Notes under the pieces: model-generated
Seen by the model: only the letters and a program-made list of their open reading frames with translations
What the model was told of the DNA's origin: nothing
Databases searched by the model: none
Part shown: one piece after another, positions 36,504-39,459 of the stretch
Layout: every line of letters begins with the position of its first letter
How positions within the stretch are numbered: position 1 is the stretch's first letter
Source: an uncultured Pseudomonadota bacterium
GTDB lineage: Bacteria; Bdellovibrionota_B; Oligoflexia; Oligoflexales; CAIYRB01
Length of the DNA: 64,000 nt
Reading direction: 5' to 3'
NCBI GenBank assembly: GCA_903928445.1
Contig: CAIYRB010000097.1
Span: 1 to 64,000 of the forward strand
Program-made: the position numbers and the translations under genes

Positions 36504-37451
36504 TTATTTCACCCAGAGGCTCAGTTGCGACGGACCGGCAACGGTCCATCCGGCAGTCGAAGTACTTGGGGTCCACTGAATTCCATTGCCATAGTTGCAA
36601 GCGTGGAAAATCGTAGTGCTCAACGCTGCGGAGTAGCCACCATTGGGCGTACAAGAAAATTTAACTTGGCTGGGAGACGCATTGGCCGACAGCGTCCAAT
36701 CGGTGGGCGCCGCGCCGTTGTTGAAAGCCTGGTTATTTAACAGTTTATAGGAGCGTAGCTGTGTAATCGGAAAGGTCGACGCGCTGATCACGTAGGTGCT
36801 TGCAGATGGCACCCCCGACGAAATGCGCACGGAGCTCGACGAGGTGGCCAACGCGACGACAATCGTGCTATTGAGCAGGCCCGCGGTGCTCAGCGCAGAC
36901 AGACTATCGACCACGGGCGTGTTGCCTGTCCCGTTATTGCTGGCAATCAGCGTCCAACCGCCGCCATTATAAGTCATGTCACAATAATAGGAACCTGACC
37001 CAATCGCGCTGCCGGCCCCACCGGGCGTCAGCGTATAGACACCGTCCGCTGATGACGGATTGGCAGCGAGAATCGCCGCACAAGTGCTATAGACCGGAGC
37101 AGGAGCAGGAGCAGGCGTTAACTCCGGAACCGGTGATGGAGCCGGGGCCTGAGTCGGACTAAGCGCGGGCGCGGGCGCAGGTGGCGTTCCAGTCAGAGCG
37201 GCGGGCGGCACCAAGGCTGGCGCCGCAGCAGCCGGCGCCACAGTGCTCGTGGGTGCCAAAGGTGCTGGCACGTTATTATTGGCAGAAGTCGTGCTAACGC
37301 CGGATGTGGGCTGCGACTCAGCAGATGACGCTGATTGCTGCGGCGGGCCCGCCGGCAGCGACGGGCCGCCGCAGCTTACGACGAGGGCGGCTGCGACGGC
37401 ACAGATTCCGCAGGCCGTAGTGGACAAATCCTTTGGAATGATTGTCTTCAT
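36504..37451 (-). CDS. Lipoprotein with a fibrinogen-C-terminal-like domain
   Basis: This 315-residue protein has a lipobox at ALVVSC, then a Pro/Ala/Ser/Thr-rich linker of about 110 residues with PAPAP runs. A C-terminal domain begins with CAAILAANPSSADGVYTL and continues YYCDMTYNGGGWTLIAS. These are the hallmarks of the fibrinogen-related (FReD) fold, in which C-x-(D/E) ... GVYxL ... YCDM ... GGGWT is conserved. In bacteria such domains are scattered and presumed to bind sugars or surfaces. The remaining Cys pair (KFSCTPNGG and FHACNYG) fits. The ATG at 37451 is used because TGGAGG precedes it; an upstream in-frame start would break the signal peptide. A surface-exposed adhesin-like role is inferred. 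Confidence 0.75.
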   Translation of the reverse strand: MKTIIPKDLSTTACGICAVAAALVVSCGGPSLPAGPPQQSASSAESQPTSGVSTTSANNNVPAPLAPTSTVAPAAAAPALVPPAALTGTPPAPAPALSPTQAPAPSPVPELTPAPAPAPVYSTCAAILAANPSSADGVYTLTPGGAGSAIGSGSYYCDMTYNGGGWTLIASNNGTGNTPVVDSLSALSTAGLLNSTIVVALATSSSSVRISSGVPSASTYVISASTFPITQLRSYKLLNNQAFNNGAAPTDWTLSANASPSQVKFSCTPNGGYSAALSTTIFHACNYGNGIQWTPSTSTAGWTVAGPSQLSLWVK

Positions 37452-37769
37452 CCGCCTTGACCTCCAGCGCCTGGGTTCGACTCGATACTTACACTCATCG
37501 GCCTTCATGACCCTGCGCTTTAGCGAAAACTTATTTACAAAGTAATAGCTATGACTTTTGGGTGGTTACGACCTTCTTTTTGCCTTAAACTGCCGCGAAT
37601 TGGTGCGTCTAAGCGGCCGCCCGCCCAAATAAAGACGTCAGCAAGCCGATCAAAAGTCAGTCGCTTGATCACCTCCTCGGGATCAGTGACCAAATTAGCT
37701 AGACCCTGGCGCGAAAGCGCCAGGGTCTAGCTAGTTCGTGGACCGTCTTACCGAGCTTTGTGTCTTGCC
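37452..37769. other. Intergenic region with a 17-bp hairpin
   Basis: The region lies between two minus-strand genes. Its main feature is the perfect hairpin at 37696-37733. Elsewhere there is an AT-rich stretch near 37520-37590 that may hold the promoter of the fibrinogen-like gene. I see no gene. Confidence 0.4.
37696..37733 (-). terminator. Perfect 17-bp stem with GAAA loop after the VDE-like gene
   Basis: TAGCTAGACCCTGGCGC and its exact complement enclose GAAA on the plus strand, read as TTTC on the minus strand. The stem lies about 40 bases past the stop codon of the minus-strand VDE-like gene. TAATTTGG follows on the minus strand, a weak T-run. Confidence 0.7.
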
Positions 37770-38570
37770 TCAATCCCCGCATCCTTCGACTCTAGACTGT
37801 TTAAAGTCGCCAATTCCGCCACCATATTGCTCCCGGGCGACATGGTCGATCTGCTGTAGAATACCTGGTGCAAGCTCACTCATAGCCGATTTAGTCAGGA
37901 GGACAGTGCCGTAGTCATAGCAGACCTGCCCGGCATCGATACAAACGTGGGCAAGCAGAGAGTCCGGCGTCAGATCTAGCAGGTACCAACGTTCGTGATA
38001 GCCGGAAAAATTTTCGTAGGCCACCTCCACGGCACCTGAATTGAGCCTGAGAAAGCTGCCATGGGCGCTGGTCAAGCGGCTGGCGCCGTTCAGCGTCAGT
38101 GGCACGGAAAAGTTTACTCGTATGAGCTGGCTCGCCTCTTTACCAGCGGCAAAATCAAAGCGCTGGCAATCATAGTCGAATATATGGGTGCCGCCGTAGG
38201 AGGCAGCAAACCAATAGCTACCAGTTAGTTCTGGTAACGGCAGCGTCGGTCGGTTGCCATGCTCGTAGTTTGGCAGGATCGCAAAGCCAAGATCGACGCA
38301 GCGACTGTCAAAGACGCACTGGCTGGTCTTGTTGATGCGATCTGACTGGTAAAAGAATCCGCAGGTCGAGGGACATTTAATCTTGTCGTCTCCGCAGCCG
38401 CGGACACAGCCAAGCCAGTTGCGGCATTCCTCTTCGATGCCACACTGGAGCAATGTGACGGCGCAGCTCTTTAGTAAACAGATCGGATCGTCTGCAGCAG
38501 GAGCGAAGGCAAAGGACCGGGTTGTGAGGAGTAGTCCGAGACTCATGACCATGGGTCGTAGGGTGTTCAT
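37770..38570 (-). CDS. Exported violaxanthin de-epoxidase-like (VDE lipocalin) protein
   Basis: This 266-residue protein has a signal peptide and strong resemblance to plant violaxanthin de-epoxidase. A Cys-rich N-terminal domain (CLLKSC, LLQC, EEEC, WLGC-x2-GC, KC, STCG, SQC and RC within about 70 residues) is followed by a lipocalin domain. That domain has the entry LTGSYWFAASYGG, the active-site-like stretch IFDYDCQRFDF, GYHERWYLL, and the ending TKSAMSELAPGILQQI. In plants the enzyme removes epoxide groups from xanthophylls using ascorbate. Here the substrate is unknown, since no carotenoid or photosynthesis gene is nearby. The ATG at 38570 is used because TGAGGC lies before it and the hydrophobic signal begins there. 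It is divergent from a SOUL lipoprotein gene. Confidence 0.8.
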   Translation of the reverse strand: MNTLRPMVMSLGLLLTTRSFAFAPAADDPICLLKSCAVTLLQCGIEEECRNWLGCVRGCGDDKIKCPSTCGFFYQSDRINKTSQCVFDSRCVDLGFAILPNYEHGNRPTLPLPELTGSYWFAASYGGTHIFDYDCQRFDFAAGKEASQLIRVNFSVPLTLNGASRLTSAHGSFLRLNSGAVEVAYENFSGYHERWYLLDLTPDSLLAHVCIDAGQVCYDYGTVLLTKSAMSELAPGILQQIDHVAREQYGGGIGDFKQSRVEGCGD

Positions 38571-38838
38571 GTTTTGCCTCAAAAAGTCGATTTGGTGACG
38601 GTGCGTGTGTCGCCGATCGATAGGATTTGCAACTGGCATCCTGCCTGTCTTCCTTTACAATTCCAACTGTCGTTGGCTTTTAATGGATATGTAAGCTAGT
38701 CCTTGATTCTGAGGCATGGGGATATCATGGGCGTCGGGAAAGCCGACTGGATAACATAGTTTGTTGGTGACAGTAGGGGATTCGAGGATACATTCAGAGC
38801 AGCATAGTCGATCATACTACGCAACAAAGTCACCGCTG

Positions 38839-39459
38839 ATGAGGTCAAAGCTGCTAAACTTGCTTTTGGGTGTGGTTGCCGTACTTATAGGGTTGGAGGG
38901 ATGTATGTCCGTTAAAACTCCCAAATACGATATCGCCACCAGCGACGACAGCATCGAAGTGCGCCGTTACGAGCCGCTGATCGTCGCCGAGACCAAAGTC
39001 AGAGGCGAATTTGGTGACGCTGCGAATATTGGCTTTCGTCGGCTCGCCAACTATATCTTTGGCGGCAACAAGGCGCAGACAAAGATCGCCATGACCGCCC
39101 CCGTAGCGCAGACCGCATTCAGCGAAAAAATTGCGATGACGGCACCGGTCGCACAATCCGAGGTTGATGGCGCCTTCGTCATCGCCTTTACGATGCCTGC
39201 AGATTACACGCTGGCTACCCTGCCAATACCGAACGATCCGTCCGTGACGCTACGGGCGGTACCAGCGCAAAAGGTCGCTGCCATACGCTTTTCGGGCTTT
39301 TGGAGCGAATCGCGATACAAGGAGCATCTGACCATACTCCAAGATTGGATGCAAGAACGCGGCTTCGCTGCGGCCGCTCCACCTACTTGGGCGCGCTATA
39401 ATCCGCCTTGGACTCCGTGGTTTCTACGGCGCAATGAGATCTTGATCGATATCAGGTGA
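38839..39459 (+). CDS. SOUL-family heme-binding-like lipoprotein
   Basis: This 206-residue protein has a signal peptide ending in lipobox LEGC, followed by a SOUL/HBP domain. Characteristic motifs are YDIATSDDSIEVRRYEP near the start, the tandem KIAMTAPVAQ repeats (residues about 83-106), FTMPADYTLATLPIP and VAAIRFSGFWSE. Proteins of this family bind heme or other tetrapyrroles in eukaryotes; in bacteria the ligand is usually unproven. The chosen ATG gives a good signal peptide, though it lacks a clear ribosome site; the frame is open further upstream. Two hairpins follow the stop. It is divergent from the VDE-like gene and may share its promoter region. Confidence 0.8.
   Translation: MRSKLLNLLLGVVAVLIGLEGCMSVKTPKYDIATSDDSIEVRRYEPLIVAETKVRGEFGDAANIGFRRLANYIFGGNKAQTKIAMTAPVAQTAFSEKIAMTAPVAQSEVDGAFVIAFTMPADYTLATLPIPNDPSVTLRAVPAQKVAAIRFSGFWSESRYKEHLTILQDWMQERGFAAAAPPTWARYNPPWTPWFLRRNEILIDIR

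Follow-up and report, generated by a model that had tools for sequence, protein, structure and literature searches.

Results

The locus

The window, i.e., the whole 64,000-nucleotide stretch of DNA analysed here, carries on its minus strand an open reading frame, hereafter P0001, whose features are collected in Table 1. The sequence-only reading had placed at 37770-38570 a Cys-rich domain followed by a lipocalin core with the motif IFDYDCQ, reminiscent of violaxanthin de-epoxidase (VDE), and this layout is indeed found. The in-frame ATG at 38570 (Met24), from which the product would count 266 aa, is a likelier start than that at 38639, since Met24 opens a hydrophobic stretch resembling a signal peptide. 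With this N-terminus, read by eye, the protein is probably exported, as had been proposed.

The hairpin just 3′ of the stop codon is a possible terminator of P0001; it is missing from the output of the terminator scan, which requires a T-run. The next minus-strand ORF begins about 260 bases past the P0001 stop and a SOUL-family gene (PF04832, 1.2e-50; window 38761-39459, plus strand) lies divergently, an arrangement from which the P0001 gene probably stands alone. By eye, no carotenoid gene adjoins it. The SOUL heme-binding-type protein has a signal-like start (by eye), and a second match to this family occurs on contig C83. A SOUL neighbour is present in five of the six genomes of the genus, the window's own included, and the regions read in G002, G003 and G005 contain no further ORF with a match in the window. 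The minus-strand ORF at 36504-37508 encodes a proline-rich putative lipoprotein lacking a Pfam match at E ≤ 0.01; its GGGWTL motif is, we presume, reminiscent of fibrinogen-like domains.

Table 1. Window coordinates of the P0001 gene and its features
Feature	Position	Strand	Basis
P0001, VDE-family gene	37770..38639	-	ORF, 289 aa from ATG at 38639
Signal-peptide-like N-terminus MNTLRPMVMSLGLLLTTRSFAFA	38502..38570	-	Reading by eye
Cys-rich domain, residues 54-114	38298..38480	-	Alignment, split Pfam search
Lipocalin-type domain, residues about 135-268	37836..38237	-	Pfam, profile of bacterial homologues
Motif IFDYDCQ, residues 153-159	38163..38183	-	Alignment with Asp114, Asp117, Cys118, Gln119
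Glu216, position of catalytic Asp177	37992..37994	-	Alignment
Trp218, position of Trp179	37986..37988	-	Alignment
Val232, position of catalytic Tyr198	37944..37946	-	Alignment
17-bp hairpin without T-run, just 3′ of the stop	37696..37733	-	Folding-energy z = -8.8

Membership of the VDE superfamily

A Pfam-A search with P0001 returned a single family, VDE (PF07137), whose match spans residues 53-268 with E = 3.6e-16 and 59.8 bits, the cut-off being 25.7. The Cys-rich half by itself matches VDE at 4.9e-8 (33.2 bits), and the lipocalin half by itself still has VDE as its sole family match, at 4.4e-4 with 20.2 bits, i.e., under the 25.7 cut-off; the likeness is thus not limited to the cysteines. 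The lipocalin half of the homologue P0003 lies over this cut-off (2.5e-6, 27.6 bits) and that of P0002, a second copy in the same genome (see below), scores 72.5 bits. PF07137 was over its cut-off in the four proteins scanned whole (P0001, P0002, P0003 and P0005) and likewise in each of the six genome-search matches. In NCBIfam neither P0001 nor P0002 had a match at E ≤ 0.001.

In the PDB, P0001 alone found no chain at E ≤ 1, P0002 alone found 3cqn at 1.2e-10, and the profile of six bacterial homologues reached Arabidopsis VDE (3cqn) at 4.5e-12, the sole other match having E = 2. The structure predicted for P0001 from a three-row alignment has a mean pLDDT of 39.3 and a pTM of 0.40, too low to judge the fold; the protein of L009, predicted likewise, also has a mean pLDDT of 39.3. 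Foldseek on the low-confidence P0001 model gave no match at E ≤ 0.001, and 3cqn is absent among the 50 matches listed; of the top six, five are nitrophorin lipocalins, with E between 0.06 and 0.1 and TM-scores no higher than 0.25, and one is RhiE.

Judging from these searches, P0001 is almost certainly a member of the VDE superfamily, in agreement with the sequence-only reading, and is to be placed by its alignment in a divergent bacterial VDE subfamily. Membership appears sound for the bacterial family overall; for P0001 it rests on both halves, of which the lipocalin half is the weaker. A chance cysteine pattern was rejected, given that the six-protein profile reaches 3cqn and that the split Pfam search matches VDE. 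Algal contamination was discarded in view of the bacterial housekeeping genes on the contig (by eye) and of relatives in other assemblies. A decayed pseudogene was likewise discarded, since the frame is open and two close pairs of the family have low dN/dS values (0.12 and 0.21), P0001 itself having no close pair.

The cysteine scaffold

In the alignment, the Cys-rich domain of P0001 contains all ten plant VDE cysteines in the same order and at near-identical spacing, the plant row being taken, over this domain, to represent the enzyme. These ten cysteines and C118 are kept in all six bacterial proteins, while the dispensable C7 is missing from all six. In P0001 the equivalent of Cys118 is Cys158, and Cys287 aligns with plant C248 in one alignment and not in another. 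The strict ten-Cys spacing pattern is matched by the plant row and five of the six bacterial proteins, P0005 being off by one loop; across all six translated frames of the 64-kb window it turns up a single time, at P0001. According to the published account, spinach VDE needs 12 of its 13 cysteines, paired as C9-C27, C14-C21, C33-C50, C37-C46, C65-C72 and C118-C248 (the abstract gives C284 for the last), the C9-C27 pair being the authors' inference and not a mass-spectrometric result (PMC4412432).

The active site

As described in a 2026 review, D177 and Y198 of plant VDE are essential, since mutation of either abolishes activity; W179 stacks on the carotenoid, H121 is the trigger of the pH switch, and D114 and Q119 are thought to contact ascorbate (PMC13181403). 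At D177/Y198/W179/D114/Q119/H121, the window subfamily (P0001, P0003 and P0004) has E, V, W, D, Q and F, P0002 and P0006 have D, Y, W, D, Q and M, and P0005 has E, Y, W, D, R and S. Asp114 and Trp179 are therefore present in 6/6 and Gln119 in 5/6 of the aligned bacterial proteins. On the other hand, none of the six, P0002 included, keeps H121, R138, Q153 or F155, with the alignment being unsure around positions 135-155. Glu at 177 together with Val at 198 occurs in the three members of the window subfamily, and the assignment of Val for Tyr at 198 in P0001 rests on sequence alignment. Since the other two members are merely 50 and 52% identical to P0001, this combination would represent a stable state. 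The IFDYDCQ loop is one residue shorter than in plant VDE.

P0001 thus resembles plant VDE (Arabidopsis, PDB 3cqn/3cqr) in its Cys-rich plus lipocalin architecture, its ten cysteines and its equivalents of Cys118, Asp114, Gln119 and Trp179, but differs from it by Glu for Asp177, Val for Tyr198, Phe for His121, the missing Glu-rich tail, the failure of P0001 alone to match the PDB, and a bacterial host without a reaction-centre match. The earlier statement that it follows plant VDE closely was therefore too strong. The matching C-terminus claimed at the same time holds as far as the lipocalin domain extends and fails beyond it, the protein stopping two residues past Cys287. Loss of the active-site Asp, which had been named as a point that would tell against the assignment, is half seen: Glu216 replaces Asp177 as in the algal VDL and VDR proteins by their published description (PMC13181403), and Val232 takes the place of the other essential residue, Tyr198.

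By the same description, VDL and VDR of algae and plants share with P0001 the Glu at position 177, and VDL either lacks the Glu-rich tail or has it in a less conserved form, but both proteins keep Tyr198 (PMC13181403). The alignment accordingly separates a window subfamily broken at 198 from P0002 and P0006, in which the five catalytic and ligand residues are all retained, while P0005 is, by its aligned residues, VDL/VDR-like at 177 and 198. With Glu216 and Val232 in place of the two essential residues, P0001 is very probably not a canonical ascorbate-dependent VDE, and the VDE activity implied for it earlier is not upheld.

A second copy and the distribution of the family

The contig of the window carries both of the VDE matches that its genome contains. 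The second gene, P0002, lies outside the window, about 56 kb from P0001 (C97 95143-95991, plus strand; L003:5144-5992; 282 aa; match at C97:95242-95934, 126.6 bits), flanked by genes for a LysR-type regulator and an MFS-like transporter and near gltB/gltD-like genes (all by eye). The two proteins share the two domains and the ten cysteines and have a BLASTP E of 9e-9, but they are only 21% identical, and P0002 differs in keeping Asp177 and Tyr198 in addition to Asp114, Gln119 and Trp179. Because these five key residues are kept, P0002 would be a better candidate than P0001 for true de-epoxidase-like chemistry.

The search for more bacterial homologues, which had been suggested as a check, found VDE matches in five genomes out of the 58 examined from the phylum and in none of the 14 controls; they come from four of the six genomes of the genus and from G023, which belongs to the same order but to a different family. 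The alignment assigns the window type to G000, G002 and G005 and the P0002 type to G000 and G001. The protein of G001 is identical to that of L009 (a MAG from Lac Pavin sediment), where a relative 95% identical to P0002 is found, and that of G023 is identical to that of L010 (Oligoflexales bacterium DT_79), i.e., P0005. These identities suggest a place for the window within Oligoflexales or close to it. A scan of genome contigs with two narrow patterns matched 56 stretches, two of them relatives, namely these G001 and G023 proteins. No relative was found among plasmids (searched with P0001 and P0002), phages (searched with P0002) or viral contigs (searched with three alignments). Next to the window-type gene of G002 stand, by eye, two class III cyclase-like genes in tandem (L024:2766-7340).

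A seven-row tree separates P0001, P0003 and P0004 from P0002, P0006, P0005 and plant VDE with 100/100 support; its branches are very long, this split is the sole starred one among four inner branches, and it includes one plant sequence. On this tree plant VDE would be nearer the P0002 type than the window type, and the tree is silent on the direction of transfer. The close pairs P0003/P0004 and P0002/P0006 are under purifying selection (dN/dS 0.21 and 0.12, respectively); between P0001 and the others, synonymous sites are saturated or nearly so.

Carotenoid genes in a genome without a reaction-centre match

Contig C44 carries a cluster of consecutive crtY-crtE-crtI-crtB genes (L011:5508-10880). 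The crtY and crtI products are over the cut-offs of TIGR01789 and TIGR02734; that of crtE is over the cut-off for polyprenyl synthetase (PF00348) and far below that of the NCBIfam CrtE model, and that of crtB is over the cut-off for phytoene synthase (PF00494) and below those of the NCBIfam CrtB models. The cluster directly follows arginine-biosynthesis-like genes (by eye), and after it comes a 218-aa membrane-like protein without a Pfam or NCBIfam match. From the cluster, it is likely that the genome directs the synthesis of a β-ring carotenoid, of which hydroxylated and epoxidised forms would be hypothetical. Host or prey carotenoids, which the sequence-only reading had invoked, are thus unnecessary as the sole possible substrate. 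A CrtZ-type hydroxylase was not recognised in the genome, whose sole FA_hydroxylase match, judged by eye, resembles a sterol desaturase.

All six genomes of the genus yield a long lycopene-cyclase match (E = 3.8e-74 or better), among them G003 and G004, where VDE is missing; in G023, which does carry VDE, no lycopene-cyclase match exceeds the cut-off. The two families consequently show no tight co-occurrence (2/6 genus genomes with the cyclase and without VDE, and the reverse in G023); the family model is broad, being matched in 10 of the 14 controls. A second lycopene-cyclase-family type, covering about 280 profile positions within open frames of 563-711 aa, was seen in G002:C164, G005:C5, G013:C2, G020:C6, G026:C8 and G029:C24. 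No carotenoid gene was recognised by eye near the VDE loci read.

In keeping with the earlier remark that no photosynthesis genes were in sight, the genome, which is 94.66% complete, gave no Photo_RC match, while the Synechococcus control was matched. There was no Bac_rhodopsin match in the genome either, though no control was matched by this model.

Discussion

The explanation that we tentatively favour, while giving it somewhat less than an even chance as a whole, is that P0001 is an exported VDE-type lipocalin with an isoprenoid ligand and a Glu216-based, non-reductive chemistry. P0001 would be a disulphide-crosslinked lipocalin of the VDE superfamily, probably exported to the periplasm, where its barrel would bind a long lipophilic molecule, a carotenoid or another isoprenoid being the likeliest. 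Glu216, an acidic residue at the position of the VDE proton donor, could still protonate an epoxide or a similar group, while the lack of the Tyr thought to position ascorbate suggests that the reductive VDE reaction does not take place. The likeliest chemistry would then be a reductant-free rearrangement or opening, like that of VDL1, which belongs to the group with Glu at 177 and is described as converting violaxanthin to neoxanthin (PMC13181403). We put forward this specific chemistry with reserve, as a possibility; the parallel with VDL1 is imperfect, since VDL and VDR keep Tyr198. The PF07137 matches, the conserved cysteines and residues, the stability of the Glu/Val pair, the purifying selection and the carotenoid genes speak for the proposal. 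Against it stand the lack of a PDB match for P0001 alone, the loss of R138, Q153, F155 and H121, the lack of an adjoining carotenoid gene, of tight co-occurrence and of a recognisable CrtZ-type hydroxylase.

Alternatively, and quite conceivably, P0001 could be a non-catalytic, exported lipophile-binding lipocalin in which the VDE scaffold was kept to bind or carry a pigment or lipid and catalysis was lost. Indeed, the essential Tyr is gone in 3/3 window-subfamily members together with Gln153 and Phe155, which lie near the carotenoid in plant VDE, and most lipocalins are described as passive carriers (PMC13181403). However, P0002 also lacks Gln153 and Phe155, so that their loss is not specific to the window subfamily, and all three members keep Glu216, Trp218, Asp155 and Gln159, seemingly more than a pure carrier needs.

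It is unlikely that P0001 acts on, or binds, a prey compound or some unrelated small molecule that is not an isoprenoid: the VDE loci read without recognisable carotenoid genes nearby and the lack of a lycopene-cyclase match over the cut-off in G023 would suit such a role, but the neighbours point to no other substrate either. With still less confidence we consider xanthophyll-cycle-type epoxide chemistry in non-photosynthetic bacteria, in which P0002 would be a working VDE acting on the cell's own β-ring carotenoids with a non-ascorbate reductant and P0001 a copy turned to another reaction; the deep splits among the bacterial forms would then make the family older than, or independent of, the plastid cycle. 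Finally, that P0001 is a genuine ascorbate-dependent VDE, or a close equivalent, with carotenoid epoxides of cellular, prey or host origin as its substrates is very improbable in spite of its family membership and its equivalents of Asp114, Gln119 and Trp179, considering Val for Tyr198 and Glu for Asp177, the statement that ascorbate is neither made nor needed by prokaryotes (PMC6191929), and the better suitability of the paralogue P0002 for this role.

In 2008 VDE was argued to be a eukaryotic innovation for which no prokaryotic homologue had been found, and a search tied to its Cys-rich domain is described there as giving no match in 915 microbial genomes (PMC2483416); the 2026 review states that the light-regulated xanthophyll cycle is absent in all prokaryotes (PMC13181403). 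Among the matches listed, open-access titles and the beginnings of abstracts contain no report of a bacterial VDE homologue, and UniProt or InterPro may carry unremarked entries. The most interesting part of our finding is the pair of VDE copies together with a carotenoid cluster in one genome. These bacterial homologues are small relatives without the Glu-rich tail, useful for studying the reaction outside the chloroplast, and two-domain forms in bacteria, one of them with the five key catalytic and ligand residues, make the origin of the family testable.
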